Of a stretch of 64,000 bases of DNA, positions 1,428-22,744 are shown piece after piece. Numbering within the stretch: the stretch's first letter is position 1; the number at the start of each line of letters is the position of its first letter. The notes beneath the pieces were generated by a model. It did not search any database and was not told the DNA's origin. It saw only the letters and a list, made by a program, of their open reading frames with translations. This stretch comes from Fibrobacter sp. (GTDB lineage Bacteria > Fibrobacterota > Fibrobacteria > Fibrobacterales > Fibrobacteraceae). The position numbers were made by a program, and so were the translations under genes. Where the stretch lies: positions 62,001 through 126,000 of the forward strand of contig JAFVGH010000068.1 of NCBI GenBank assembly GCA_017475045.1. The letters are read 5' to 3'.

Positions 1428-4400
1428 TCACCACCCAATAGCACAACAAATCTTAGAAACATCCCCAGTGACATGGAGAATGTCGTTAACAGCAGGAGGC
1501 GGTTCAATGCTGTTGTTAGATGTATTATCGCCACCACTTACTGGAGTTCCATCATTCACTTGAACAGAACAACCACCGCCTCCATAAGGACAATTAAACT
1601 TAATAGATTTACATGATCCAACCGCTGTAACCTTATAATCCTTTCCATCTGCAAGAGACTCATGTGTGAGCTCATTTTTATTACAATCCTTTGTTAGTGA
1701 CAAATTCGTAGGTGGATCCGGAGCCGAATATGTCACGGAGAACGCGCAAGGAGTTTCAGCAGAACCCGCAGAATTCCTTAACGCAAGTGTATAATTATAC
1801 GTTCCCGGTTCACTTTCCCCAATAAACGTTATATCACCACCATAGTAGGTATCTGATCTGTCATTTGTCCCTGATGCAGAAATCGTATAAATACATCCTC
1901 CAGGCACGGAACAATTAGTAACAGACGGGGACACCTTTATTACTTTGCCCGTTTTGGCAGTAGAAGGAGCGGAACAGGAAGGTACCGTCGGCTTACTAAC
2001 CGGTTCACAAGGATTTGCATTCGCTCCAGAAACCGTGGCTTTTCGCCAATTATTACTAGGATTTGTATTAGTAGGGAGAGGAATTTTCATGTAATAACCG
2101 CCATCAATTTTTTCAATGCCACTATATGTAGAAGCACATCCATTGGCGTCCCCACAATAACTTCCCGCATCTTCGCCATTAATAAGAACATTTCCGTTGC
2201 TATTGACATTTACGGTCGTAATCTCGGTTCCATATACACATATCACAGAACTATTCGTTCCCTCAAGGCCCACATTTGTTCCTGTAACAAGGGAATTGCA
2301 AGCCTCAGTACCGCACGTACAACCACATTTTGCCCCTGCAGCCGCAAACGTCGCACTACACCTTTTTGTTGTTGTCCCCGAGGAATTCCTCAAACTGACA
2401 ACATATATTGCCGTATCACCGACTGTAGTCGTGTGGCTATTCGTAAAGGATGGTAAAGCTCCTGTTGTATTTGTGTAACCAGTACTTTCTGTTCCAGAAG
2501 CGCCCCAACCTTCAATCTTGTAGTAACAGTAGCTACCACCTTCATCGCAGCCGGATACATTTTGTGGTATGATGGTGACATTGTTCGATTCACTAATTGT
2601 TGCCCTCAAATTTGTCGGGCAATCAAATGCAGGTTTCGCCTTTTTCACCTTCATTTTCCAATTACAGGTAAACGGACCGGCAGAGACCCCACTAACACTC
2701 AATGTAGTACTATATGAATACTCTTTGTCTCCCGTTCCACTCGGTGAAATTGTCACATCGCTATTGAATTTTGACGGATTGTTGTAACAATCGTTTTCCT
2801 TATTTGCATTGCTTCCTGAAATCGTGCATTCTGTATACGTACCATTGCCATAGTTATATGCCCATTCTGCCTTAAACGTGAATGAACCACCCTCTTCCAT
2901 TTCTATTTCTTGATTATTTGTAATGGCGGTACCATTGACTTTACACACTAGCGGGTTTTTCACCTTGTATTCTTTATTGCTGCAAAGTGTCGCTCCATCA
3001 GCGGTCAAACTATAAGTATAATCATCACTTACCGTAGCAGGAGCGTTTATAGCATCCATGTCCGGGCAGGCGTCACTAGAGCAGTCTTTGTTCCAAGAAC
3101 CCACGTTCGCTATAGAAACAGTTCGGCTAACAGTCTTTGTAAGATTTTCATCTCCATTCATCTGAATCCCCCATGTAGTCGATTTTAGGGGATATGTCGA
3201 GATATTTGGACACGTCGCCGTCAAGACATCGCTCAGCGATTGTACAGTTAAGGTTGCCGTACAGAATGTATTCCCACCATAAGTAATGGAATATGTGTAC
3301 GTATCCGCTGTAGTTGGGGCAGTCACACTATAGTGATTGACATTTCCACTATTGTAACGGTCAATCGTCACAGATTGGGTTCCACCACCACCACTGAGGG
3401 TTCCCGAAATCTGATTGTTAGAACGTTCGTCCCATTTACTACTTTCCCCAACACCAGTTATATCTAACGTTGTGCTGTTACCCGTATAAACCGTTGACGG
3501 ATTAAACTCGCACTCTCCTGTCACCACACCTTCTGTCGACTCCGCTACCGAGAACTCCTGTTCGCAGCTTGCAAACGGATATTCACTGTTGGTACTTTCC
3601 AAAACCAGTTTGTATGTCTTGTTCAGCGTCAACAGATGTTGATCATCGTTGTTATAGGCATTGACCGGTGACGTATTAGACACATCCCCGCTTACCTCAG
3701 AATTACTTTTCACAGTAGCAACAAGAGTTGTACCATCCATAAGCTTTATCGTGTACCCGCACTTGGGCTCTTGTGCCGTAGCCGTCGGGCACCCGGTAAT
3801 ACTGTAAGTCATTGCAGGCAGTCCTTGACCCGGTCCTATCGTTTGCTTATCAGGAGGAATACTACAAGACGTGGTTATCCTAGAAACTGTGGTTTTGGTC
3901 TCGCAAGGCGAGCCTTCGGCAGGTTTGGCAGGCGTGCTTCTATCTGTCAAAGTTAATGTAAACTTATAGTCCACAGATTCGTTATCCCCCGTTATATAGG
4001 TGTACGGGGTATGACTCAACAGGTTCTGGAATTCCCACGTTTGAACACTATTCCCGGTAAGGGTGCATTCACCGGCAACACAATTCTTTTGGTTGTCCAT
4101 GGTGGTCAAGTCGTTGTCAGCTCCACCGATGTTCACATTGGTTACGTCAAGAGTTCCCGCCACACTGCCATTGTTCACCGTGGCTGTAACAGTCCATTTG
4201 TCAGTAGCAGAATTGTAGGTTGCATTGCACGCTTTAAGGCTCAAGGCATACGGACACCTACTGTAAACTGAGGTAACGTTAATTCCCGAACCCGCATCGA
4301 ATTTTACATAGGCGCCAGCAACGTGTTCGGGGTCAAAACCGTCCACATTGGAAATATCGGCCACAGGAACGGAAATTTCATTTCCGTTACCAACGGACAC

Positions 4401-7400
4401 AGAAGCTGTGTAAGCCTGGCTATATATAGCCTCGCTGCCATAAATATAGCCATCAGTTAAATTTTTACTGAACAGGTAAACAGAAACTTCAGCCGCCTCT
4501 GCTCCGGTATTGTCCAGCTTCACTACCAGCTCCGCTTCTCGGAAGTTTGCCGCGTCGCCCGAAGTATTCTGGGCGAAATAGGTTCCCTCGGCACCATCTA
4601 TGGTCTTGGCAAAAGGCACATGCTCGGTACAAGGCGTAAAGGCCCCGACCCAGAACGGTCCACAATGGGCTGCAATCGCAGGCACCTCGCTGGTGGCCCA
4701 TGGAGCACTTTCGCCAGAGATGGTACACGTAGACCCACTTGCACCAGCCCGCGCCACATTAGTGCTACCAACGCCATGGGGCCCAACTAAATCATCTCCG
4801 GTGAATTTATAACCATCAGAAGGACAAATGTTGTACCCAGATGAACCTTGGGCGTATCCATTACAGCCCGCGTCACTTCCGTTGTAATAGAATTCTGGTT
4901 CACAAGTGTTTCCGTTTTCTCCAAACCACTTAGAGAAACCAACCCAAGGCGTTACAAATTGGTTTTTGGGAACGATGCCCCCAGCGTATTTCGCCTTGAA
5001 GGAACAGGTTATGGTGGGGTAAGAGTCCCAACATTGCGAAACGTAATCATCGCTTTTCCAACCGATACCGTAAAGCTTGAAATTCTGATCGGAGAGGCGG
5101 AAACCGACATACTCGTTACTCTGGCTTGCAAGATTCTGAATCCCATCAAAGTCATTCTGGCTCAAGTCAAAAGAGGTCATCTGGTATGCCGAACTGTATG
5201 CACTGGTATAGGCGTAAATATCGAGAACATCGTTTACTCCGAGAGCATCGTTCGCGTTGGCCTTGCGGATTGTCGCTGCCACCAGAATGATGTCGCCCTG
5301 GTTTACAGACGCGGTCCCAATCTGCTTCTCCTTGCAGGGAGAATCTCCGTTCAGGCAAAGCCTCGCCTTCAAGTCGCCATTCTTGTCGCTAAAGATGTTA
5401 AGCATCAGGTAACTGGAGCCATCTGACCTAGAACGGAGAATAAAGCCGGACTGTTTGACAGTAGACTTAGAAATGCCGCCGCTAGAAATGCCCTCCCTGG
5501 GGACCTGGAACTGCGCTTTCAGGGTTCCATAGGCGCCTGCTTGAGCCCGGCTCATGATTGTCACGGAAGGCTTTTCGCTTTCTTTCTTTATACGAGTGGA
5601 TTTGGCAACGAGAGAGATACGGCCATCGCCATTGAATTCGATGTCACTACTAGAACCACTCAGCAGTTTCCACTTGGAAGTAGTATGTGTGCCGGCGGCG
5701 TCTATGCAGTATTCCGCATCGCTGCCGCTAGCGCCACACAGTATAGCAGACCTGTTGGTATAATAGCCCTCATTGCTGCGGAACTCGTCAAAGAAACAGT
5801 GCTTGTCCGATTCTTCAAAGTGGGCATCGACAACATCGGCCCCTGTTATGGACATTACGTACGTATTGGTTGGGCTTGGAATTTTCGATGCCGGACAATC
5901 AGGACCGCTTTCGCACATCCAGTAATTGAAATTGCTCGGCGGGGTTAATTTAGTGGCATCAGTAGGATTGGGGAACGAAAGGGTCACCCGGTCACCATAA
6001 TAGACCTGAACCTGGCAATTCGCAGCATTCTTTGTCGCATCATTGAAATCGCTATACTTGCAATTGTTGGTGCTGACATCGCTATAGACACCCTCACTCT
6101 GGCGTTCAACGTGAATGTTGATGGGGCGACTGTCGCTAATACCACTATTTTCGCCCTTGTCCGTTACGTACCTAACAGCAAAAGTAAACGGTCTAGCCTT
6201 GAGAGAGGCATAAAGATCCACTTCGGAAATCTCGGCGGAAGGCGGGTCGTTGGCCTTGTTCGGCCCCGGTATGACCACCTCGCACCCGCTACTGAACGCT
6301 CCCTGAACTTCTTCCAGCTGTATCGAGCCCGTGTTCTTACAAGTCCAAGGACCATTGGCCTGACCTCCGCACATTTGACCATTGGCCGTGACCCATTGCG
6401 CACTTATATCGCAATCGGGGGCAGAAACCTTGGCGCACTTGGCCTTGTCGGCATCGGTTGTACCATCGCCATTAGCGGTACACCACTCTTCAAGAGACTT
6501 TCTGTTGACGGTTATGCTGTTGCCGACCATGATGGTTTCGATATAGGGCGCCCCTACATCACAGCCGTCTGCACTTAAAATCTGGAAAACAAGCTGATTT
6601 GTCGCGTTTTTATTTTTTACCGTAAAAATGTTATGAAGAGCCTGGTTTGAACTGATTTTAAAGAAACAGGGACTGCCAGCGTTGCACGCGCCATCCGTGG
6701 TACCAACAACCCCAACCTCCCACTGGTCAACATCGTAACTGGGGAAGTCAACCTTAACCGTGTATTGTTCCGCCACCCCTGTTGTTGTCGGAATGCGCAA
6801 CTGAACGTTGTAGGTAGGATCTGTCTTTTTCAGTTCTTTTTGGCCTTCGGCAAAAGAAACTCTGGCTACGCCATCATCGGCGCCAGTAACAACCACATAG
6901 AAGGGAATAGACGATTCAGTGCCATCAACAGATCCCGAGGCATAACAGGTGTAATTCCCCGACGCAAGTTTATGCTGTGCAGTGGGGACCAGCTTGCCAC
7001 TAGTAGGAATGGCCCCACCACAACTCACGGACAAGTTTTGCACAGTGGAACTGTTGTTCCGAGGATTCAGAGGAATTACGTTGTAGTACTGATCCAAGTT
7101 ACCTTGAGGATTGTTGCTCAGGTAGATTATTCTCGGGAGAACAATAAACGTCGGCGCTGCAGCTTGACCGTTTGCGACAAGGTTGTCGATGCTTTCGTTG
7201 CTAGCGTATTGGGTTTCTAGATTGATGGAAAGTTGTGGTGCAACCGCTATGTAGTAATCGTCTTGAGCACCACCAGCGGCAGCCCCCATTCCGCCCCCTG
7301 CAGCACTGGGGTTTGCCAGAAGCGTGTAGTCGGGGTTTTCTTCAATGAAGCCTGCGTCAGCCAAGGCCTGAAGGACAGTTCCATTATACTCAAGATTGAC

Positions 7401-9461
7401 GTTGCCATCTGCGACGGTTGCCTGAGAACCGTTCTGCATAATGACAGAACCGTTCACTTTCAAGTTTGATAACGTCGTCGCGGTAGTACCGCCTGCATAA
7501 ACGAAGTAATTATAAAACCATCCATCGCCACGCGGACCACCGGAAAACAGTTTCGATGCTCCTCCAGGGAGATAAAGTAATATGGAAGAAGCCGACGTTG
7601 TCGGGGGTATAAAGAAATCACTAGTACTCCGCCCTGTGAAGTAGAAAATGAATTTACCATTCAAGATCGGATTTCCATTTTTGGTAATGGTCTGGTCCAT
7701 GTTGCTTCCCGAACCGCCAGCAAAAGTGAGAACTAGGTAGTTATTATACAGATCATCGCTCTGGGACAATTTTTCATAACATTTTTGAACATCTTCCCAG
7801 AAAGACACTTCAAGCTTACTGTGGCCATCAATGATATAACCATTAGACGTGCTTACATTCTTATCAAAGTTTGCCAAATTGTCCGAACCAGAAAGATTAT
7901 AACATGCCTGGTTTGATTTATTTTGCAGCCACTGATCCTGGTTATTCGCCATATTCTTTAGAAGAATTGCCTGGGGTACGGTATTTGTACCATCGTCATT
8001 ATGCTTAATAAGATGGCCCAGACTGTTCATTCTGTCTATGTTGGACCAATAGTTGCCGCCAATATCTTTCCATATATTTCTCGTACGGTCCCAAACAGGG
8101 AGCGCTGTTGAAGTCTTGTTATGGTCGTCATCTACAAGAGAAAAACCAAGCAGCCTCTTCTGTTTACCCGATTCTGTATCGTTTCCGAGTTCCGTTTGCG
8201 TGGTGTATTGCATGTATATGCCATAATTCGGATCATAAGGGGTCCAATGACAATTAGTCCAAGTCCATCCATCCCAATCGCATTCTTTCTTTTGCTGTTT
8301 TAGAACAGAATAATAATTTGTCATATTATGACGATATATGTACCCACCAACGGACGATTTTCTATTGCCTCCGTCATCATTACAACCCGACCCACAATGG
8401 GCCTCGATTATGTCCGGAGCGTACAAATTCAGACCAACCTTAAAGCGTCCTGTTCCATTGCCTTCGAAATTATACGATCCGTTTTCCGTGAAAACAAGAT
8501 GTCCATTGACGCACAATGATGAAGTGTTCCCATATACAGTACACGTCACACCGTCTTTATCTACAGCCTCTTTGTTTCCATTACGATCCAATTGTCCATT
8601 TGCCGTTAAATTGCCTTCCGTGTATATACCGCAATCGTTCGCGATATTCCCGTGAACATATAGATCTCCTCCTATGTAGATAGAGCCTTGTCCACCAGAA
8701 CAACTAAATGTTCCCCCAACATAGGCCACATTGTTACCAGACCCAATACTGTTATTACCATTGAAACTGACATTTCCCCTGACATAAAGATCGGCTCCGG
8801 CCAAGCCCGAGGCTCCGCCAGCGGGACCTGCCAAGGTCACATTTCCGGTCACAATCATGTGCTCCGTCACCGTCGGCTGGTTACCGCTAAAATTACCATT
8901 TACAATTGCAGACTGGAATGTGGGGCTATTGGTCAAGTTTCCCAAATCTCCCTGGAACGCCTTGTTAAAGTTTATGGTAGTGGAAGTACTAGGTATTTTC
9001 ACCCTATACAAACCATCAACGTTCACTATGGCCACTTCGCGGTGGCTTGCTCCACCATCCCTTGCGATTCCTTCGGAAACAAGCTTTAGCTTATACGTAG
9101 ATTTTTCCGTACTCACACCTGTGAGCCATACATGGAAATTTTGCCCTGCACGCACCAAGGGAGCCAACCGATTGTCCAGACTTACCGCACTATTCCCGTT
9201 AGTCTTGTATTGATGAATCAATGCACCCACGTCGTTTGCATGGTAAGTCATCCAGCTGATTGCGCTTTCGACACCCGCCACAGAGCTCTGGTACGCCTCA
9301 CGTTCCAGCATACGGCTAGCACTGGAGTGCCCCTCGCTGGTAATCCACTTGTAGGTGGCGGTAGCGGCGATGGTTGCCACCAGCATAAAGAGGAGGACTG
9401 TAACGAGCGAAACACCCGCTTTTTTCATTACTCGTTTCTCATTTCTCATTCCAAATTTCAT
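1428..9461 (-). CDS. Giant PilX-like minor pilin with adhesin-like ectodomain (2,677 aa)
   Basis: The N-terminus (MKKAG followed by VSLVTVLLFMLVATIAATAT) is a class III prepilin signal with the hydrophobic helix at residues 17-36. Cleavage would follow Gly16, and position +5 is not Glu, as in PilX and GspK. PilX proteins are about 200 aa; this one is over ten times longer. Residues about 170-330 are short Gly/Asn repeats (LYVRGNVSF, IYIGGDLYVHGN) suggesting a beta-helix. About 1230-1470 looks like a concanavalin/LamG-type sandwich. About 1860-2677 holds at least five Cys-rich Ig-like units of 90-110 aa. The start at 9461 has AGGAGG five bases upstream; a second ATG at 9428 (MKKAG) is possible. 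It is last in a four-gene minor-pilin operon, nine bases after its neighbour. I infer a pilus-tip adhesin taking the place of PilX plus PilY1. Ligand unknown. Confidence 0.8.
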   Translation of the reverse strand: MKFGMRNEKRVMKKAGVSLVTVLLFMLVATIAATATYKWITSEGHSSASRMLEREAYQSSVAGVESAISWMTYHANDVGALIHQYKTNGNSAVSLDNRLAPLVRAGQNFHVWLTGVSTEKSTYKLKLVSEGIARDGGASHREVAIVNVDGLYRVKIPSTSTTINFNKAFQGDLGNLTNSPTFQSAIVNGNFSGNQPTVTEHMIVTGNVTLAGPAGGASGLAGADLYVRGNVSFNGNNSIGSGNNVAYVGGTFSCSGGQGSIYIGGDLYVHGNIANDCGIYTEGNLTANGQLDRNGNKEAVDKDGVTCTVYGNTSSLCVNGHLVFTENGSYNFEGNGTGRFKVGLNLYAPDIIEAHCGSGCNDDGGNRKSSVGGYIYRHNMTNYYSVLKQQKKECDWDGWTWTNCHWTPYDPNYGIYMQYTTQTELGNDTESGKQKRLLGFSLVDDDHNKTSTALPVWDRTRNIWKDIGGNYWSNIDRMNSLGHLIKHNDDGTNTVPQAILLKNMANNQDQWLQNKSNQACYNLSGSDNLANFDKNVSTSNGYIIDGHSKLEVSFWEDVQKCYEKLSQSDDLYNNYLVLTFAGGSGSNMDQTITKNGNPILNGKFIFYFTGRSTSDFFIPPTTSASSILLYLPGGASKLFSGGPRGDGWFYNYFVYAGGTTATTLSNLKVNGSVIMQNGSQATVADGNVNLEYNGTVLQALADAGFIEENPDYTLLANPSAAGGGMGAAAGGAQDDYYIAVAPQLSINLETQYASNESIDNLVANGQAAAPTFIVLPRIIYLSNNPQGNLDQYYNVIPLNPRNNSSTVQNLSVSCGGAIPTSGKLVPTAQHKLASGNYTCYASGSVDGTESSIPFYVVVTGADDGVARVSFAEGQKELKKTDPTYNVQLRIPTTTGVAEQYTVKVDFPSYDVDQWEVGVVGTTDGACNAGSPCFFKISSNQALHNIFTVKNKNATNQLVFQILSADGCDVGAPYIETIMVGNSITVNRKSLEEWCTANGDGTTDADKAKCAKVSAPDCDISAQWVTANGQMCGGQANGPWTCKNTGSIQLEEVQGAFSSGCEVVIPGPNKANDPPSAEISEVDLYASLKARPFTFAVRYVTDKGENSGISDSRPINIHVERQSEGVYSDVSTNNCKYSDFNDATKNAANCQVQVYYGDRVTLSFPNPTDATKLTPPSNFNYWMCESGPDCPASKIPSPTNTYVMSITGADVVDAHFEESDKHCFFDEFRSNEGYYTNRSAILCGASGSDAEYCIDAAGTHTTSKWKLLSGSSSDIEFNGDGRISLVAKSTRIKKESEKPSVTIMSRAQAGAYGTLKAQFQVPREGISSGGISKSTVKQSGFILRSRSDGSSYLMLNIFSDKNGDLKARLCLNGDSPCKEKQIGTASVNQGDIILVAATIRKANANDALGVNDVLDIYAYTSAYSSAYQMTSFDLSQNDFDGIQNLASQSNEYVGFRLSDQNFKLYGIGWKSDDYVSQCWDSYPTITCSFKAKYAGGIVPKNQFVTPWVGFSKWFGENGNTCEPEFYYNGSDAGCNGYAQGSSGYNICPSDGYKFTGDDLVGPHGVGSTNVARAGASGSTCTISGESAPWATSEVPAIAAHCGPFWVGAFTPCTEHVPFAKTIDGAEGTYFAQNTSGDAANFREAELVVKLDNTGAEAAEVSVYLFSKNLTDGYIYGSEAIYSQAYTASVSVGNGNEISVPVADISNVDGFDPEHVAGAYVKFDAGSGINVTSVYSRCPYALSLKACNATYNSATDKWTVTATVNNGSVAGTLDVTNVNIGGADNDLTTMDNQKNCVAGECTLTGNSVQTWEFQNLLSHTPYTYITGDNESVDYKFTLTLTDRSTPAKPAEGSPCETKTTVSRITTSCSIPPDKQTIGPGQGLPAMTYSITGCPTATAQEPKCGYTIKLMDGTTLVATVKSNSEVSGDVSNTSPVNAYNNDDQHLLTLNKTYKLVLESTNSEYPFASCEQEFSVAESTEGVVTGECEFNPSTVYTGNSTTLDITGVGESSKWDERSNNQISGTLSGGGGTQSVTIDRYNSGNVNHYSVTAPTTADTYTYSITYGGNTFCTATLTVQSLSDVLTATCPNISTYPLKSTTWGIQMNGDENLTKTVSRTVSIANVGSWNKDCSSDACPDMDAINAPATVSDDYTYSLTADGATLCSNKEYKVKNPLVCKVNGTAITNNQEIEMEEGGSFTFKAEWAYNYGNGTYTECTISGSNANKENDCYNNPSKFNSDVTISPSGTGDKEYSYSTTLSVSGVSAGPFTCNWKMKVKKAKPAFDCPTNLRATISESNNVTIIPQNVSGCDEGGSYCYYKIEGWGASGTESTGYTNTTGALPSFTNSHTTTVGDTAIYVVSLRNSSGTTTKRCSATFAAAGAKCGCTCGTEACNSLVTGTNVGLEGTNSSVICVYGTEITTVNVNSNGNVLINGEDAGSYCGDANGCASTYSGIEKIDGGYYMKIPLPTNTNPSNNWRKATVSGANANPCEPVSKPTVPSCSAPSTAKTGKVIKVSPSVTNCSVPGGCIYTISASGTNDRSDTYYGGDITFIGESEPGTYNYTLALRNSAGSAETPCAFSVTYSAPDPPTNLSLTKDCNKNELTHESLADGKDYKVTAVGSCKSIKFNCPYGGGGCSVQVNDGTPVSGGDNTSNNSIEPPPAVNDILHVTGDVSKICCAIGW

Positions 9462-9470
9462 ATTTCCCTC

Positions 9471-10841
9471 CTAGTCTCCAATTCCGTTGCTGGGGGTGGG
9501 GATAACAATTGTTGCTTCGCCAGTCTCGCCTTCATGGCCATTTTTACCACCACGACCAATCTGCAGTTCCAGCATCAGCGCCTTCACATGCTTTTTGTCC
9601 ACGGTGCTAATGGACATGGACTTGTCAAAGACATAGTTAGAGCCGGCAACTTGCCTAAGTTTTAGCTTCGATATGGTAATCGATCCTGTAGATGCCACTG
9701 GAGAATAAGTCGAAAAAGTAAAGGCCATGCACACCTCTTCTAAGTTTGCTGGCACCGAGAATCGCATTGTTCTTGCGCCCTGAGAATCTTCGTTCGTAGG
9801 CGGATAAAAAAGAAAGTCTTCGGTTGATGCAGGCTTTGTACCATCTGTATTCCGGAATCCTACGGCCATGTGGTCACGGCCCGCCACAAACAACTGCATT
9901 CCATCCGCAACAGAGACATGAACCATGGAAAATGAAATTTCGTATTCAATCCCTTTTTCCAAGGAAAACTGTTGGCAATAGCTCGACCACGTCGGACTTG
10001 CTCCATGATCTTCATTTGTCGCAACATAAAGTTCAGTCACATTCTTCCCGTCAACTATAATCTGCCCCGTTGACGTATTGTAATTCGACGCAAAGCCAGT
10101 TATAGTAACACTAGAACCACCAGCTGTAACCGACGTGGGAGCTACGTAATCTCCGGAGGTGGGGCGAGGAAGAAGGCTGAAAGCCTCGGCTCCGCCCGGC
10201 GGGAAAATGGTTTCTTCTTGATGAACTGCCGCAGCCGCATCACTGCGTATGGTCGGTATTCCCGGGTAGACCTTAAATTTTTCAACACCGGTCGCCATAT
10301 CCACCGCACCAGCACCTTCTTTACAGGGATCATCATCAGGAAGGGTGTAGGAATCTTTTTGACGAAGAATCGAGCAGCTACGCTTGAGCGTTTTGTCCGT
10401 CACATCCCACACAACCTGCTCTATGGCCTGGTAATGGCCTTGATTGTCGTAACGGAGGCGACGAATTGTCAACTTGTCATAGTTGCCGCCACCGGCAGAT
10501 TCAATCTTGTATGACGAATAATCCTGGTCAGCCGCATCGGCAGCATTCGGGTTCATGTAAATACAATCCACCTGACCAGCAGTACAACTTGTATATTTTT
10601 CGAAGGTGTCTTCGGCTCCAGTCGCCCCAGTCTCTTCTTTCGCGCTCTTTGCTCCCATCTGACTTACGTCCGCCTTGAACAGGCTTGCCACGTTCTCAGC
10701 CTCCTGGGTAGCCTTGAGCATATTCTGGGTACGCACACGGAACTTGGTGGAGTTGCTAAAGGCCTGCCCGGCCACCACAACGATAATGCCCACGATGGCC
10801 ATGTAGACCATGAGCTCCATGAGGGTGAAACCTTTTTTCAT
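9471..10841 (-). CDS. PilW-like minor pilin with an inserted beta-sandwich domain
   Basis: The protein starts MKKGFTLMELMVYMAIVGI, a textbook prepilin signal with Glu at +5. The chosen ATG (10841) overlaps the stop of the upstream pilin gene as ATGA, so translation is probably coupled; a longer frame upstream (to 10892) is not needed. Residues about 25-240 resemble PilW/PulJ-type pilins (TQNMLKATQEAENVASLFKAD). Residues about 240-400 form an extra domain with alternating strands (YEISFSMVHVSVADGMQLFV, MRFSVPANLEEVCMAFTF, GSITISKLKLRQ), similar in layout to jelly-roll carbohydrate-binding modules such as CBM4/9. The end (MLELQIGR) returns to pilin-like sequence. About 456 aa, longer than usual PilW. 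Role in pilus priming is inferred from family and operon position. Confidence 0.75.
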   Translation of the reverse strand: MKKGFTLMELMVYMAIVGIIVVVAGQAFSNSTKFRVRTQNMLKATQEAENVASLFKADVSQMGAKSAKEETGATGAEDTFEKYTSCTAGQVDCIYMNPNAADAADQDYSSYKIESAGGGNYDKLTIRRLRYDNQGHYQAIEQVVWDVTDKTLKRSCSILRQKDSYTLPDDDPCKEGAGAVDMATGVEKFKVYPGIPTIRSDAAAAVHQEETIFPPGGAEAFSLLPRPTSGDYVAPTSVTAGGSSVTITGFASNYNTSTGQIIVDGKNVTELYVATNEDHGASPTWSSYCQQFSLEKGIEYEISFSMVHVSVADGMQLFVAGRDHMAVGFRNTDGTKPASTEDFLFYPPTNEDSQGARTMRFSVPANLEEVCMAFTFSTYSPVASTGSITISKLKLRQVAGSNYVFDKSMSISTVDKKHVKALMLELQIGRGGKNGHEGETGEATIVIPTPSNGIGD

Positions 10842-11431
10842 CTGATTACCCCCGAGACAGATATAGACTGGGTTGAGCCATTGAAGGGCCAACTGACGAT
10901 AACTTCTAGACGCTTGGCATAAATATGACTACTACTACTCGCCATCGCTTGAAGATACTGGGTAGTAGTTCCGGCATTGTAATTATCGTCGGTATCACTA
11001 GAAAACTTCACTATGGCCTTGTATTTGACGGTCATCGTATTTTCAACCAGTCCAGGCTGTCCCATCCAGGTGCGATTAATCTTTATGGTATCAGGTTCAT
11101 TAGTTGCGCCTTCTGCCCACGACGTCCACTCGCTGTCAGTAAACTTTTTGAGCCAGAACGTTCCTCCATCATCTTGCTTGAGATTGGTGCCAGTGAAACT
11201 AGCCAGTCCAATCGCACCCAGCTTGTCAATAATGTTCTGCGCCACTTCGGTGGCGCCGTCTCGGCCACGTATGCGCAGCAGGGCATCGCGGTTACCCTTC
11301 TGCAGGTTAGAGACGGCCGCATAAAGAATACCAAGCACAAGGGCAGCGACCATCACTTCTAGAATGCCAATGCCACGCTTACGGCGCATGCATGGGGAAT
11401 CAGAATGAGTCTTTAGGGAAACACCTTGCAT
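10838..11431 (-). CDS. PilV-like minor pilin
   Basis: A basic leader MRRKRG precedes IGILEVMVAALVLGILYAAV, a prepilin helix with Glu at +5 after the cleavage Gly. The body (GRDGATEVAQNIIDKLGAIG, then a TMTVKYKAIV / VIVSWPFNGSTQSISVSG end) matches PilV/GspI-type minor pilins. Start chosen at 11431, where AGGGAG lies nine bases upstream; the frame also stays open to 11467, overlapping the previous gene, and ATG at about 11389 (MRRKRG) is a third option. It lies 13 bases after the FimT-like gene and overlaps the PilW-like gene by four bases, so the set is one operon. Confidence 0.75.
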   Translation of the reverse strand: MQGVSLKTHSDSPCMRRKRGIGILEVMVAALVLGILYAAVSNLQKGNRDALLRIRGRDGATEVAQNIIDKLGAIGLASFTGTNLKQDDGGTFWLKKFTDSEWTSWAEGATNEPDTIKINRTWMGQPGLVENTMTVKYKAIVKFSSDTDDNYNAGTTTQYLQAMASSSSHIYAKRLEVIVSWPFNGSTQSISVSGVIR

Positions 11432-11444
11432 AACACCAAACTCC

Positions 11445-11996
11445 CTAGATACCAGACCAACCGGCATCGCTCCCCATCATAGGGGTAAAGCTGTTCTTAG
11501 ATTTCGTCTTCAGGGCGGCCCCGTAGAGAGCCCTCCCGGCATACTGCACGGCATAGTAGCCGGAATAAGGCGCTGCAGAAAGACCCGGCCTGGGCGTAAA
11601 AGTAGCACCGCCGCTATACCAGTTCGTAAGGAACTTGCCCTCGGCGTCCTTGAAACTTCCGTCCTTCACTTGAGAATCGATAATCTTAACAGGGCTTTCC
11701 AGCTCCAATTCATCTACCTTGGCTCCAAGCGGGTTGGCACTACATTCGGACTTATACGTCACCAGTTTCTGGTCCCCATCCCTTTTCACGCACAGGGTCG
11801 CGTTCAACCGGCGAGCCTCGTTAGCAGCGCGTTCCAGGTAAGCGGTCACATTAAAAGCGGCGTCCTTGGTGCGGGCATTGGCCACGGCACTGCGAAGACC
11901 AGCGATCCCCATACCCGAGAGGATACCCATAATGGCGATAACCGCCATCAACTCCATCAGCGTGACACCCGCCTTATGTTTTGAACTATTCAACAT
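11445..11996 (-). CDS. FimT/GspH-like minor pilin
   Basis: The sequence MLNSSKHKAG then VTLMELMAVIAIMGILSGMG is a prepilin leader and helix with Glu at +5. The next segment (AVANARTKDAAFNVTAYLER, AANEARRLNATLCV) follows the GspH/FimT pattern of a long amphipathic helix and a small beta head with two cysteines. It is first in the four-gene minor-pilin operon, the same place fimU/fimT holds in pilVWX operons elsewhere. ATG at 11996 has GGGTGG upstream; TTG at 12014 has AAGGAA closer by and would add six residues, so the start is not settled. Confidence 0.75.
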   Translation of the reverse strand: MLNSSKHKAGVTLMELMAVIAIMGILSGMGIAGLRSAVANARTKDAAFNVTAYLERAANEARRLNATLCVKRDGDQKLVTYKSECSANPLGAKVDELELESPVKIIDSQVKDGSFKDAEGKFLTNWYSGGATFTPRPGLSAAPYSGYYAVQYAGRALYGAALKTKSKNSFTPMMGSDAGWSGI

Positions 11997-17376: not shown

Positions 17377-17601
17377 TCAAAAACGAGATTGAATTGTATT
17401 CGGGTCGGGGTTATCCACGATCCGATTTTTAGTTTGTCCCAAATCCTGTAAAAGTTGCTTGGAACTGGCCTGATAGTTCCTCTGCAAGAGGACATAGTCC
17501 CCGTGCAGGTTTTTCCATACGCCAAGGGCCACTAGCGTTACAATTCCCGCGCAGGCCATGGCCACCATCAGTTCCATCAAGGTGAATCCGTCTCTACGCA
17601 T
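17377..17601 (-). CDS. Very short prepilin-type protein (74 aa)
   Basis: MRRDGFTLMELMVAMACAGI is a full prepilin leader and helix with Glu at +5. After the helix only about 40 residues remain (VWKNLHGDYVLLQRNYQASS...), so the usual globular head is nearly absent. Start set at 17601, inside the previous gene (25-base overlap). It is last in the second pilus operon. It may be a stub minor pilin capping or linking subunits. No frameshifted head was seen: the DNA downstream belongs to the GT2 gene. Confidence 0.7.
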   Translation of the reverse strand: MRRDGFTLMELMVAMACAGIVTLVALGVWKNLHGDYVLLQRNYQASSKQLLQDLGQTKNRIVDNPDPNTIQSRF

Positions 17602-17963
17602 CTCACAATCCTCTTCAGTGTCAAGTTGTCCCACCGTCCAGACGTTTCGTGGACGCTAGCCCATTGCAGGGGTGCACCACCCGGAATCCGTTCAAAGGAA
17701 AGGGTAAAATTGATTCCCTGCCGGGACACCGGCAAAATGACTAGAGACGTATCGGTCTCATCGCGTTTTGGTTCCACACAGTTCCCTGGCGTTGCCACCT
17801 GCTCTTCTATCAGCGAAACAGCCTCTACCAGCGCCACCCCCTTTTTCGCCTCACGTTCCTTCGCCTGTACAAACCCGACAACAATATGCCCTATACCAGC
17901 AGCACCTATAGAAAGGACGACAGCGGTCACCATCACTTCTATCAGGGTGAACCCGCGTTTCAT
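17577..17963 (-). CDS. PilV/GspI-like minor pilin
   Basis: MKRGFTLIEVMVTAVVLSIG is a prepilin signal with Glu at +5. The rest (VQAKEREAKKGVALVEAVSL, then a small beta region) fits a GspI/PilV-type minor pilin of 128 aa. The ATG at 17963 forms an ATGA overlap with the stop of the PilX-like gene, which decides the start. Confidence 0.75.
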   Translation of the reverse strand: MKRGFTLIEVMVTAVVLSIGAAGIGHIVVGFVQAKEREAKKGVALVEAVSLIEEQVATPGNCVEPKRDETDTSLVILPVSRQGINFTLSFERIPGGAPLQWASVHETSGRWDNLTLKRIVRCVETDSP

Positions 17964-18826
17964 AGCCGCCCCCAAATTTTCCGCCGGCCTTCGATAAAGG
18001 CCGGGAACAGAACCCCATCAGGCTCGTCCTCTGGGCTCTGCGCTGTCTCATTCTCGTAGCTTTCGTCCCAGGTTGCCACCACCGCTGTCGGGAACAGGCT
18101 CCGGGCATGGTCTTTCATACGAAAACTTGAGGCAAGTACCATCCCCCGAAAACTAGCCTCCCCTTCAGCGCGGAAACCACCTTGCGTAAAGAGTTCTAGG
18201 TACCCGACCGACATTTCTCCCTGAAACACCACGTCACCCAAGGCGTATAACCGGAGCGTATCAAAATGGGCATGGCCACGAACAAGGACCGTCCCTTCTA
18301 CCCAGAAACTGGCCGACTGAACGCGGTCAGAAAAACTTATCTCCAGATCACCCTGATGAATGGCACCCGACATAAGCGAATCGCCCTGGAAATAGCGTCT
18401 GTTTCCATACAGCTCTTTTCCCGAAGTGCTTTCCAAAATTCGTTTTTCCAGATCAGATCTGTAGTTCGAAACCCCGTTCGACCATTCCCAGAACGAAACA
18501 TTATGTGGTTCGGTACCAGCCACAAGACAGAAATCCTTATCGGACTTTTCCGTTCCACTGATGGTGCAGATTTTCTCCCAAGGGCCGAAAGGTTCCACCT
18601 GCACGCGAGGCAATTCCGGATAATAATCCGATGGGAACCCCTGCAAGTGGAGCAGCACGGCAGATTCAGCCCTGTAGAAAGCCTCGAAATCAGACTTGTA
18701 ACGTGACAGTACAGGATTCAGCTTGCCCCCAGTCTTCAGAAGTATCGTAAAAAGCATCGTCAACGAGAGCAACAGGATTGCCACCATAGGCAATACGAAA
18801 CCTCGAGAATTAGGGAGAACGGCCAT
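17960..18826 (-). CDS. PilX/GspK-like minor pilin with beta-helix-like head
   Basis: The N-terminus NSRGFVLPMVAILLLSLTML is a prepilin-type signal whose +5 residue is not Glu, as in PilX/GspK. Then comes a helix rich in acidic and aromatic residues (SDFEAFYRAESAVLLHLQGF). Residues about 175-255 are short hydrophobic repeats with turns (GTVLVRGHAHFDTLRLYALG, DVVFQGEMSVG, GGFRAEGEASF), like a parallel beta-helix or bactofilin-type stack. The giant pilin at 1428-9461 has a comparable region. Start ATG 18826 has GGAGG six bases upstream and overlaps the previous gene by 17 bases. Confidence 0.7.
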   Translation of the reverse strand: MAVLPNSRGFVLPMVAILLLSLTMLFTILLKTGGKLNPVLSRYKSDFEAFYRAESAVLLHLQGFPSDYYPELPRVQVEPFGPWEKICTISGTEKSDKDFCLVAGTEPHNVSFWEWSNGVSNYRSDLEKRILESTSGKELYGNRRYFQGDSLMSGAIHQGDLEISFSDRVQSASFWVEGTVLVRGHAHFDTLRLYALGDVVFQGEMSVGYLELFTQGGFRAEGEASFRGMVLASSFRMKDHARSLFPTAVVATWDESYENETAQSPEDEPDGVLFPAFIEGRRKIWGRL

Positions 18827-19829
18827 TGACCACCTCCCATTCCTTGCCTCCGCATTCCAGCACAACGCGGTCCCTGAGTACAGACTTTACGCGATAGCTC
18901 CCGAGAGAATCGCCCAGCTGTTTCATGACAGGCTCACCACCCGACACTCCCGAGAATAGCCTGTTCCCCACAATTCCGCGAATTATCAGCATCGGTTTTT
19001 GACAGTCGCGAACAGCGTCTTCATTTTTCGGGCGTGGCATTTTTGTTCTATCGCTCAGCCTGGTTTCTTTTGATATGGGCCCTGTCGCGGGTGGAGTAAG
19101 CAGGGGTGCCTCCGGACCGAAAAGTTTCTCGCATCCGGTATCAAGATTTTTCCATGCCAAAAATCCAGCCACCATCAACATCAATAATAGAATTATAGAC
19201 AACGCTACCCGCGGGCCACCCGCTCTAGGTTCAAGATGCAGGCCCCTCCAAAAAGGATCTCTGGCAGCCCTCCGAAGTTGTTCCATCCACATTCCTGCAG
19301 GGTCATCAAAGTCCATGTCCAGACATTCCATGACACCACACTGAAAAGCCTCTGCCTGGGAAAACAGCGGGTCACGTCGCAGGAATTCGTCCATACGGCG
19401 GAGCCTTTCCTTAGCCCGCAAGCCTGCCCGAGCATCTCCATAACCCCGTTCCTCGGACCAGTGGCACAGCCTACCCTCGTAAAAAAGCAACACGTAGAGA
19501 GTCTCACCCACAAGGGCCGCGTATCGGAAATTCCCGTTCCCTTCGCGGGAACCCATCTGCTCGTCTGCCCGTGTATACAGGAACAGGGATATCGGTAGTT
19601 TTCGCCCGCCGTGCAGGCGTCCCTGTTCGGCAACAATTACCAGGTAGCGGTGATGGCGACCTTCCGATGAATTGAAGGATATCATCTTCCAAAATTTCGG
19701 CAAGCCTTCCACTTCCGGGAAGTCCCTGCGAAAGTAATCCATCAGGTCTTCTTCCGTGGGATTTTGGCCAAAACCCGTAACCAATTCCCAGGTACAAATA
19801 CGGGCATGGATTCCCTGAACACGAGCCAT
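18810..19829 (-). CDS. Bitopic pilus-assembly protein with PilP/GspC-like periplasmic end
   Basis: A cytoplasmic N-terminal domain of about 205 residues (FWKMISFNSSEGRHHRYLVI, YAALVGETLYVLLFYEGRLC) precedes one membrane helix at 208-226, a Pro-rich linker and a small C-terminal beta domain (LIIRGIVGNRLFSGVSGGEP, SYRVKSVLRDRVVLECGGKE). The last part resembles the homology region of GspC/PilP that contacts the secretin. The layout suggests one protein doing work often split between a PilM/GspL-like cytoplasmic part and PilP. It directly follows the secretin gene with a one-base overlap (TGATG). Assignment rests on topology, the C-terminal pattern and neighbours. Confidence 0.55.
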   Translation of the reverse strand: MARVQGIHARICTWELVTGFGQNPTEEDLMDYFRRDFPEVEGLPKFWKMISFNSSEGRHHRYLVIVAEQGRLHGGRKLPISLFLYTRADEQMGSREGNGNFRYAALVGETLYVLLFYEGRLCHWSEERGYGDARAGLRAKERLRRMDEFLRRDPLFSQAEAFQCGVMECLDMDFDDPAGMWMEQLRRAARDPFWRGLHLEPRAGGPRVALSIILLLMLMVAGFLAWKNLDTGCEKLFGPEAPLLTPPATGPISKETRLSDRTKMPRPKNEDAVRDCQKPMLIIRGIVGNRLFSGVSGGEPVMKQLGDSLGSYRVKSVLRDRVVLECGGKEWEVVNGRSP

Positions 19830-21532
19830 CAGAGCTTCACCTCCGGCGTAATGAAGATGGCAAGCTCGCTTTCTTCTTCCTCTTCGCTCTCGTAACTGAA
19901 AAGCTTACCGATGAGCGGAATACTCCCCAGGAAGGGAACTGCAGAATGCACCTCGGTACGGGTCTTGCGGACTAAACCGCCTAAGCAAAGCGTTTCACCA
20001 TTCTTCAGCAGCACCACCGTCTTCAGGTTCCGAGTGCTGATATCCCGGGGGCCATCACCAGAGCTGCGGCCTGCGGTCTTGATTTCGGGAGACACATCCA
20101 AAGTGACAATTCCCTCCCTGGTAACAGACGGCGTAAGTTCCAAAGAGATTCCGTCATTAAAGGATCTATAATCCGTAATGGGGAAACCTTCGGCACTAAC
20201 CTGGCTTACCAGGTAGTAGACCGTATTGGTCACGTTCAGTTCAGCCTTGTTTCCGTTCAAAGTCGTAAGCTTCGGACGGGCTAAGACCTTCGCTAGGTTG
20301 CTTTCTTCCATAGAGGCCAGTTCCATTTCGAAACGGTCCGGCAATATGCCGATTTTTCCGACAGCCCCCTTACCAGACACGTCCTTCCCTAAAAAGTCCA
20401 GAAACCCCTTCAGTCCCAGGTCTCCTTCTTTTGTCCGCCGACCTGTACCGCCCCGCAGACCAAGCTCAAAGGCCTTACCCTTTTTGAACTCGACAATGAC
20501 ACAGGAAAGAGTCACCTGCAACAGAGGCACGTCTATTTTCTGCAAAAGGGAAACGGCCGCCTGAATTCGGTCCGCAGCACCAGAAAGCAAAACCCCATTC
20601 TGTTCCTTCACCTCGGACACCGAAAGTTCTCCCACACCAAACATTTTACCAAGCTGTAACAAGGCCTTTTCGCACTGGATATGTTTCAACAGGTAAAGCC
20701 TTGTCACCGAAAGGGCATTCTTGGAACCACCTTCCGATACAGACAAGGTGTTTGAATCCAGTTGGAACGTATAGCGGCTCCCTCGAAACAGGGCCTGCAA
20801 AAATTCCGGAAGTTTTACTCCAGCAAAATCCAACTGTACTTTTTCTTCCATGCTCCCATACAAGGCGAGGTTCAGTCCCGCAAGGGATGCAAGTTCTTTC
20901 AAAGCATCCCCCAGGGTAACGCCATCCAAATGAGCCTCGTAAAAGTCACCCTCATTCCATATTCTCGGAGTAGCCGGTACTGTTTCATGAGTGCCACCCT
21001 GGTTTGTCGGCACAACGGCGCGCCGCACCATCTGACAGCCGTTTTTCTTTTCAACAGCAAAGCCGTTAATTTCCATCAAGGACCGAAAGGCCTTTTCTGG
21101 TTGCAAGCTATAGATGCTTCCCGAAAGCAGTCCCTGAACATCAGGCTCCCACAGAATATTCATCCCTGTAGTAGCGCTGAATTCGTTTAGGAACTCCAGG
21201 ACATCCTTGTTCTGCACATTCACAGAAACTACGGAATCCCGAAACTGGATATCGCTCTTTCCATGATGTTTGCGAGGCTGAATTACCAACAGGTTATCTT
21301 TCTGAACCAGATCTAGCTCATTGGACTCGCACAGGGCCGACAACCCATCCAGCAAAGACGATCTCTCCAGATGAAAGGTGATACGACGATCTATGGCGGC
21401 ATCCGCCACAATCGAGACATCATAGGCCAAAGACAGGGAGCGCGCCACTTCCTGAACAGGAGTATCCACAAAATCAAGTGTCACTCCAAAAGAAAAAGAG
21501 AAAAGGAAGACGAGGGGGACAAGGATTCGCAC
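19829..21532 (-). CDS. Type IV pilus/type II secretion secretin (PilQ/GspD family)
   Basis: The outer-membrane ring through which the pilus passes. GTG at 21532 opens a signal peptide (VRILVPLVFLFSFSFG) with GGAG eight bases upstream; the frame runs on to 21586 but that start would hide the signal. Early domains are STN/N0-like (VDTPVQEVARSLSLAYDVSI), followed by N1-type repeats. The C-terminal gate is typical: LAKVLARPKLTTLNGNKAEL, LKTVVLLKNGETLCLGGLVR, VPFLGSIPLIGKLF and LAIFITPEVKL at the end. 567 aa, near the size of GspD. It lies between pilT and the PilP-like gene. Confidence 0.88.
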   Translation of the reverse strand: MRILVPLVFLFSFSFGVTLDFVDTPVQEVARSLSLAYDVSIVADAAIDRRITFHLERSSLLDGLSALCESNELDLVQKDNLLVIQPRKHHGKSDIQFRDSVVSVNVQNKDVLEFLNEFSATTGMNILWEPDVQGLLSGSIYSLQPEKAFRSLMEINGFAVEKKNGCQMVRRAVVPTNQGGTHETVPATPRIWNEGDFYEAHLDGVTLGDALKELASLAGLNLALYGSMEEKVQLDFAGVKLPEFLQALFRGSRYTFQLDSNTLSVSEGGSKNALSVTRLYLLKHIQCEKALLQLGKMFGVGELSVSEVKEQNGVLLSGAADRIQAAVSLLQKIDVPLLQVTLSCVIVEFKKGKAFELGLRGGTGRRTKEGDLGLKGFLDFLGKDVSGKGAVGKIGILPDRFEMELASMEESNLAKVLARPKLTTLNGNKAELNVTNTVYYLVSQVSAEGFPITDYRSFNDGISLELTPSVTREGIVTLDVSPEIKTAGRSSGDGPRDISTRNLKTVVLLKNGETLCLGGLVRKTRTEVHSAVPFLGSIPLIGKLFSYESEEEEESELAIFITPEVKL

Positions 21533-21643
21533 CGCAGGATCTCCATGACAAACATATTCAAAAGAGATTCCTACGGAATCCGCCAAAGAACGCCCGCAGG
21601 CATTCCAAGAAATAAACTACAAAATTAAAAAGGCCAAAGACAA

Positions 21644-22744
21644 CTACATCCAGCCGCGTTCCGAAGTTCCGGTAATACCGCGAATCTTCAGTTCGAAGTC
21701 ATCCCTGTTGGTAGCCGCATTCAGGGCCACATCCAGAGAAATCTTGTCCTGGTTGTAGAGTTCCAGCAAGGACTGGTCAAAGGTTTGGCTATGGTACTGC
21801 ATGTGTCCTTCGGCGATAGCCGATTCCACCATGGCAAGCTTATCCTTGTCCTTGATGTATTCCTTGATAGCGGCCGTATTCACCAGGATTTCTGCAGCAG
21901 GCACACGTCCCGTGCCATCCTTGGTAGGCAACAGACGGAGAGAAATAATACCGGCCAAAACTTCGCCCAACAACAGACGAATTTCGTCGTGCTGGTGCGG
22001 CGGGTACATGGAAAGCACACGCTGGATTGTTTCGGTGGCGTTAGTGGTATGGATAGTGGCAAACACCATGTGGCCCGTATCAGCAGCCGTAAGCGCAATG
22101 GCCATGGTCTCCAAGTCACGAATTTCGCCCACCAACAGCACGTCCGGGTCCTGACGGAGAGCGGCGCGCAAGGCGTTAGCATAAGACAAGGTGTCCACCC
22201 CAAGTTCACGCTGGGAAATAATAGCCTTGTTGTCGTTGTACAGGTATTCGATAGGGTCTTCTACCGTAATAATGTTGACCGACTCGTTCTGGTTAATGTA
22301 GTCCAGCATAGAAGCCAAAGTCGTAGACTTACCGGAACCGGTTGTACCCGTCACCAAGATAAGACCGCGGCGGGTCAAAGCCAAATCCTTGACCACCTCG
22401 GGAAGCCCCAGTTCTTCGAAAGGAGGAATCTTTGCCTTGATGTGACGGATTACCACAGCAATGGTTCCACGCTGACGGAACACGTTCACACGGAAACGGC
22501 CCATATCGCGGGCACCCACAGCAAAGTCACATTCCTTGTTGGTCTCGAAACGCTGTTTCTGGTCGCGATTCATGATATCATCCAAGAAGGAATCCATCAT
22601 GGCAGGGTCAATACGGGTATCAAAAATCTTTACCAGAGATCCGTTGATGCGGAAAATAGGAGGCGTCCCTACGCGAATGTGCAAGTCAGAAGCCTTGCTT
22701 TTTACCATTTCGCGAAGAAGTTGCTCAATCCTCAATTCAGCCAT
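21644..22744 (-). CDS. pilT: Type IV pilus retraction ATPase PilT
   Basis: Hexameric cytoplasmic ATPase that pulls pilin subunits back into the membrane and powers twitching and DNA uptake. Seen: SDLHIRVGTPPIFRINGSL near the N-terminus, Walker A GTTGSGKST at 133-141, Asp box ITVEDPIEY, Walker B DVLLVGEIRD at 201-210, His box HMVFATIHTTNATETIQRVL and a PilT-like C-terminus. 366 aa, standard size. It starts three bases after the acidic scaffold gene and leads into the secretin gene. PilB and PilC are not in the window. Confidence 0.93.
   Translation of the reverse strand: MAELRIEQLLREMVKSKASDLHIRVGTPPIFRINGSLVKIFDTRIDPAMMDSFLDDIMNRDQKQRFETNKECDFAVGARDMGRFRVNVFRQRGTIAVVIRHIKAKIPPFEELGLPEVVKDLALTRRGLILVTGTTGSGKSTTLASMLDYINQNESVNIITVEDPIEYLYNDNKAIISQRELGVDTLSYANALRAALRQDPDVLLVGEIRDLETMAIALTAADTGHMVFATIHTTNATETIQRVLSMYPPHQHDEIRLLLGEVLAGIISLRLLPTKDGTGRVPAAEILVNTAAIKEYIKDKDKLAMVESAIAEGHMQYHSQTFDQSLLELYNQDKISLDVALNAATNRDDFELKIRGITGTSERGWM

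Follow-up and report, generated by a model that had tools for sequence, protein, structure and literature searches.

The minor-pilin complex at the pilus tip is capped by a subunit that lacks Glu5 (PMC10191384). PilX of M. xanthus, P. aeruginosa and N. gonorrhoeae lacks this residue, as GspK does, and has been placed at the top of the complex, where it holds PilY1; M. xanthus and P. aeruginosa carry several FimU-PilV-PilW-PilX-PilY1 clusters per genome, which were proposed to yield different tips (PMC7541494). In S. sanguinis, a monoderm without PilY1, a pilin module is grafted to adhesive modules, a vWA module in PilB (about 50 kDa) and Ig-like and ConA-like lectin modules in PilC, and both proteins have been modelled as tip caps (PMC8179133, PMC9934059). 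The most extreme case named in a 2021 survey of modular pilins, which took only N_methyl (IPR012902) pilins, is a protein of 860 residues with 12 extra domain copies. Regarding solenoids, ComZ of T. thermophilus is a DNA-binding pilin of GspK-like type whose large beta-solenoid (about 380 residues, with long loops) has been likened to ice-binding proteins, and a tip position has been argued for the protein (PMC6561018). Finally, the tapirins of Caldicellulosiruptor, a Gram-positive lineage, are cellulose-binding proteins that have a beta-solenoid with long insertions (6n2c) and have been reported attached to the S-layer or to pili (PMC10267330, PMC9933333).

The window analysed here, that is, the whole stretch of 64,000 nucleotides, comes from a Fibrobacter sp. 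genome (a MAG-like assembly with 7% contamination) and contains a tandem array of four pilin genes (minus strand, 11996..1428), in the order fimT, pilV, pilW and a giant PilX-like gene. The features of this operon, in window coordinates and residues of the giant protein, are the following:

11996 (ATG) to 11445 (stop), minus strand: fimT/fimU (H-type) minor pilin, 183 aa, Glu5 present.
11389 (ATG) to 10838 (stop), minus strand: pilV (I-type) minor pilin, Glu5 present (GIGILE).
10841 (ATG) to 9471 (stop), minus strand: pilW (J-type) minor pilin, 456 aa, Glu5 present.
9461..1428, minus strand: giant PilX/K-type pilin P0001, a single open frame of 2,677 aa.
8982..9428, minus strand: predicted class III signal, pilin alpha1 helix and pilin beta-sheet, residues 12-160, cleavage after G16, no Glu5.
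7299..8972, minus strand: predicted beta-solenoid, residues 164-721 (153-710 of the model), best match tapirin 6n2c.
6879..7154, minus strand: possible Big/Ig-like domain, residues 770-861, weakly matched (Z 6.4-6.8 to Big_2-CBM56, LigA and S-layer domains).
6522..6872, minus strand: predicted Calx-beta fold, residues 864-980 (Z 10-11 to the Calx-beta domains of CALX and integrin beta-4).
5040..5807, minus strand: predicted L-type (legume/ConA-like) lectin fold, residues 1219-1474 (Z 13-15.5).
4602..5039, minus strand: strongly conserved Cys/Trp/His-rich segment, residues about 1475-1620.
2322..4247, minus strand: predicted string of Ig/FnIII-like beta-sandwiches, residues about 1739-2380.
1431..3434, minus strand: variable C-terminal region, from residue about 2010, whose last 200-300 residues are swapped as a cassette.
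1394-1373, minus strand: terminator-like GC-rich stem-loop 34 nt beyond the giant stop, a consensus match only.

Neighbouring genes of the operon abut or overlap, with a gap of 9 nt between pilW and the giant gene. On the downstream side the window holds only small genes on the opposite strand, and no pilY1 follows the giant gene there. The preliminary description of this DNA had read a fimT-pilV-pilW-PilX-like order with tiny gaps or overlaps, no pilY1 behind it and an ectodomain of more than 2,600 residues. The ORF coordinates agree with the first two of these points, and the last corresponds to the single frame of 2,677 aa, which appears by fold to contain modules of adhesion type. Terminator-like matches such as the one beyond the operon are no more numerous than in shuffles. 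Just downstream of the operon, a short plus-strand ORF (863-1258) resembles by eye the C-terminal part of an Rpn/PD-(D/E)XK-type protein.

The product of fimT matches N_methyl (E 8e-6) and is GspH/PRK10506-like in profile searches, and its gene order is kept in relatives. The PilV product gives weak profile matches (N_methyl 0.0013, PilV 0.051), and its position is likewise conserved. The window PilW is unusually long at 456 aa, and its C-terminal half might contain a CBM4/9-like beta-sandwich. We regard this as a hint only, because CBM_4_9 matches 2 of 41 relatives (best E 0.001) and single searches of 20 PilWs, that of the window included, found no CBM.

The genome of the window carries the machine of a type IVa pilus: pilM, pilN, pilO and the pilQ secretin lie on contig C68, pilB on C59, pilT and pilC on C53, pilD on C89 and two pilins on C121 (pilN, pilO and pilC were named by eye from order, size and sequence). 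A second PilB/GspE-type ATPase gene with one in-frame TGA was also seen in this genome (L190, G000:C126:5786-6760). Besides, the window contains a second, small pilin/secretin cluster on the minus strand (17377-21586), with a pilT-like gene upstream (21644-22744). It encodes an 85-aa Glu5 pilin, a 132-aa PilV/GspI-like pilin, a 339-aa membrane protein, a 585-aa secretin and a 301-aa PilX/GspK-like pilin with solenoid-like repeats, the latter giving the normal size of a K pilin in this genome. The TPR protein encoded at 22748-25402 repeats a segment around PQSVDDAFGSIFGEDELPEEPA in several near-identical copies.

PilY1 appears to be missing well beyond this operon. Using the profile of its beta-propeller (PF05567), we found no match in any of 151 Fibrobacterota genomes, in line with the absence noted in the preliminary description, and the same profile matched an Acinetobacter record as a positive control. 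The giant itself gave no PF05567 match either; it may work like PilY1, yet it is not PilY1. The Fibrobacter operon thus shares with those of M. xanthus and P. aeruginosa the four-pilin order, a PilX without Glu5 on top and the occurrence of several clusters in a genome, but they pair a small PilX with a separate PilY1 effector, whereas Fibrobacter has a giant PilX and no PilY1 (PMC7541494).

The N-terminus of the giants bears the signature of a tip-cap pilin. In the window protein, cleavage is predicted between MKKAG and VSLVTVLLFMLV, which leaves a mature N-terminus without Glu5, whereas FimT, PilV and PilW of the same operon have it. Across the family, mature position +5 is Thr, Ala or Val in 43 of 43 giants and Glu in 43 of 43 paired PilWs. 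PilX_N (PF14341) matches 32 of 41 giant N-termini, with a best E of 7e-10; the window giant alone gives weak values (E=0.094 and 0.034) and misses the cut-off by itself. The PilX label, and with it the PilX-type N-terminus proposed earlier for this protein, is therefore firm for the family and weak for the window member taken singly. In the AlphaFold model, the long pilin helix is seen as helices 7-31, 36-62 and 64-76, with a short pilin beta-sheet at 97-138. The absence of Glu5 in the giants is the published mark of a tip-capping pilin and predicts a position at the tip.

Regarding the ectodomain, searches against Pfam, NCBIfam and PDB profiles detected nothing past PilX_N except stray weak PKD/Ig matches. 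Since no sequence-profile library detects them, the domains past PilX_N are assigned by fold only, from two AlphaFold models covering residues 12-1190 (43-row family alignment) and 1181-2380 (40-row), both of moderate confidence (mean pLDDT 77.6 and 76.0, pTM 0.57 and 0.54, respectively). Structure prediction, which the preliminary description had named as a check, returned the pilin helix, a solenoid, Big-like and Calx-beta-like domains, a lectin fold and Ig/FnIII-like folds. The solenoid was closest to the C-terminal domain of tapirin 6n2c (Z 13.8, rmsd 4.6, 321 aligned, VIA-align 2; repeat folds inflate Z), well above the runner-up, the ice-binding solenoid 5uyt (Z 8.2). A single tapirin entry surfaced in this search, and it was absent from the 50 best E-values of Foldseek. 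In view of this and of the moderate pLDDT of the model, we take the tapirin match as suggestive. Sequence-profile searches detected no similarity between the giant and the tapirins, which differ from it also in being separate proteins of a Gram-positive lineage. Tapirin genes adjoin a type IV pilus (T4P) locus.

The lectin-like domain, for which Pfam gives no match, shows the L-type jelly-roll fold by structure comparison of the model, with a phage receptor-binding domain (9n6a) and the Erythrina lectin (1gz9) as best matches (about 190 aligned) and VIP36 and ERGIC-53 at Z 11. Directly after this fold, the segment at 4602-5039 (residues about 1475-1620) has invariant Cys, Trp, His and Gly and matches no known family. 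With a pilin module and predicted lectin, Calx-beta and Ig-like extra modules, the giant would be a modular pilin in build. It is in this respect like PilB and PilC of S. sanguinis, but the Fibrobacter giants belong to a diderm, reach about 3,200 residues and have a tapirin-like predicted solenoid and swapped C-terminal cassettes (PMC8179133, PMC9934059). ComZ resembles the giant in its GspK-like pilin part and large solenoid, with a likeness to ice-binding proteins seen for the giant too; however, nothing further follows its solenoid, and it has no lectin, Ig string or cassette exchange (PMC6561018). As to the earlier statement that no pilin of this size and build had been described, pilins with adhesive modules in place of PilY1 are known already in PilB and PilC. 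For size, the giants exceed the most extreme case named in the 2021 survey (860 residues), which is not to call them the largest pilins known; PilX_N-type giants would escape that survey because it was keyed to IPR012902, which they do not match.

Searching Fibrobacterota with the window protein, we found homologues in 58 of 61 genomes of the same genus, as open frames of 2,000-3,100 aa, among them each of the 29 genomes of good quality (completeness of 90% or more, contamination of 5% or less). The regions and loci retrieved yielded 43 distinct full-length giants (1,666-2,819 aa, median 2,409), and a PilW of 425-500 aa lies directly upstream of every one of them, with a gap of 1-60 nt. The isolate F. 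intestinalis ATCC 43854 (L128) has the complete fimT-pilV-pilW-giant order, with a giant of 2,323 aa. The gene order therefore recurs in other Fibrobacter genomes, as the preliminary description had proposed to check; the spread of the giant through the genus, its frequent duplication together with pilW and the swapped C-terminal cassette go beyond what that description had noted. A chance ORF or an assembly artefact was considered and excluded by the conserved open homologues, the purifying selection described below and the presence of the giant in this isolate.

Named records with giant homologues are almost all Fibrobacter or Fibrobacteraceae, and within the phylum strong profile matches occur only in Fibrobacteraceae (open frames of about 820 to 3,209 aa). 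Giants were looked for in another class of the phylum as well, and the search there returned only PilX-like proteins that matched weakly, their frames being 542 and 665 aa long. Because of these, the great size of the Fibrobacter giants looks derived.

Many genomes carry at least two pilW-giant units. G006 carries three pairs in tandem, G058 has divergent complete operons, G049 and G017 have divergent copies, and pilW-giant pairs occur in G044, G001, G046, G004 and G008. According to this distribution, PilW and the giant are duplicated together, as a unit.

The family alignment shows a conserved N-terminus through about residue 2000, the rest being not conserved. In the closest informative pair, dN/dS was 0.05-0.13 over the core and 0.37 at codons 1700-2200, values which indicate that the giant core is under purifying selection. 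The C-terminal end behaves differently from this core. The giants of G044 and G046 (L058 and L073; G044:C5 and G046:C5) share 88% nucleotide identity over 8 kb, followed by unrelated stretches of 1,231 and 1,300 bp spanning the last 200-300 codons, and then 97% identity downstream. Conversely, those of G026 and G058 (L048 and L067; G026:C5 and G058:C31) are 86% identical over their last 859 nt, despite cores with just 34% protein identity. Where the cores of two giants are 45% identical or more (25 pairs), similarity in the last 350 residues is undetectable in 12 cases. The 318 C-terminal residues of the window giant are unique within its own genome, which is incomplete; no silent cassettes were found there, and the G044/G046 comparison revealed no leftover of a replaced cassette beside the giant gene. 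Judging from these comparisons, the last 200-300 residues of the giant are exchanged as a cassette between relatives. Swapping of the outermost end would be expected of a specificity module on a long surface protein.

Any reading of the locus has to accommodate what is solid from sequence comparison: the architecture, as predicted folds, the conservation, the gene order, the lack of Glu5 and of PilY1, and the swapping of cassettes. We consider it likely that the operon with its giant provides a modular tip pilin that does the work of PilX and PilY1 and that probably binds plant polysaccharide. One could argue that the operon serves a type II-like secretion system, its HIJK set being the minor pseudopilins GspH-I-J-K and the giant, in place of an adhesin, an oversized GspK by which secreted enzymes are selected or displayed. 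GspK and PilX are equivalent, neither having Glu5 (PMC7541494), T4P and T2SS can exchange their HIJK sets (PMC10191384), type II secretion genes are annotated in F. succinogenes (PMC3079729), and a second secretin cluster is present in the window. However, the second cluster already encodes a small K-like pilin of its own (301 aa), a periplasmic pseudopilus would hardly have room for a conserved series of Ig, Calx-beta and lectin-like domains, and exchangeable C-termini suit a binder exposed on the surface better than part of a secretion machinery, which makes the secretion reading improbable.

The ligand could also be another one. A tip adhesin for other cells, mucus, DNA or the cell's own matrix, with the solenoid as a ComZ-like DNA receptor, would fit with the DNA-binding solenoid pilin of Thermus (PMC6561018), with the DNA binding of FimT-family pilins in other species (PMC8897410), and with the binding of host glycans by the PilC lectin of S. 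sanguinis (PMC9934059). By structure, the solenoid nonetheless comes closest to a cellulose-binding tapirin, well over the ice-binding solenoid, and the lineage is one of fibre degraders, so that a target other than plant fibre seems unlikely to us, though by no means far-fetched. Finally, the giant might be cleaved after export, leaving a small PilX in the pilus while a large ectodomain, soluble or bound to the surface, is at work elsewhere. Its size of about 280 kDa, its leader and its many linkers make processing conceivable, but no cleavage motif was noticed, the core, from the pilin part through the lectin domain, evolves as one conserved and constrained unit, and we hold such a separation to be very improbable.

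Returning to a modular tip pilin, we infer a position at the tip, adhesion, a ligand and retraction as follows. The H-I-J-K minor-pilin set would prime and cap the type IVa pilus of Fibrobacter, the giant being an extended K/X subunit. Its pilin part would rest on PilW at the extreme tip, so that the giant would leave first through PilQ, carrying the ectodomain. Outward from the pilin part would come the tapirin-like solenoid, the Ig/Calx-beta spacers, the lectin domain, the Ig-like string and the exchangeable specificity end. The solenoid, the lectin domain and the variable end may bind plant cell-wall polysaccharides, as the most likely ligand, and retraction by PilT would then draw the cell onto the fibre. 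Duplication of the pilW-giant unit and replacement of the C-terminal cassette would diversify the ligands. Since the lineage has no PilY1 and the giant would both initiate the pilus and present adhesive modules, we propose, as the preliminary description had inferred, that a single pilin takes over the roles of both PilX and PilY1.

A more specific version is put forward only tentatively, and we would rather not lean on it: a fused tip pilin and adhesin with a truly tapirin-like, cellulose-binding solenoid and an outermost domain swapped horizontally in the manner of phage tail fibres, which would give strains their own repertoires of retractile, fibre-gripping tips. Type IV pilin proteins have been implicated in the adherence of F. 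succinogenes to cellulose (PMC3079729, PMC6851124), and some pilins are lacking in mutants deficient in cellulolysis or show a slight increase on cellulose (PMC3079729, PMC6851124, PMC4668043). The giant is described in none of the papers found by our literature search, which reached few subscription papers, nor did we find one that names the probable neighbour genes of Fisuc_0251-0253 in strain S85.

On the best reading, the giant is an extreme and new form of the modular pilins that are already known, of a PilX_N type that surveys keyed to N_methyl would miss. It suggests that PilY1 is dispensable in a diderm and that cassette exchange can be a way for pilus tips to evolve. Fibrobacter is a main degrader of fibre in the herbivore gut and has no cellulosomes, and how it grips cellulose is a long-standing question. 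For this grip the giant offers a defined, universal and testable candidate, with domain boundaries ready for expression.
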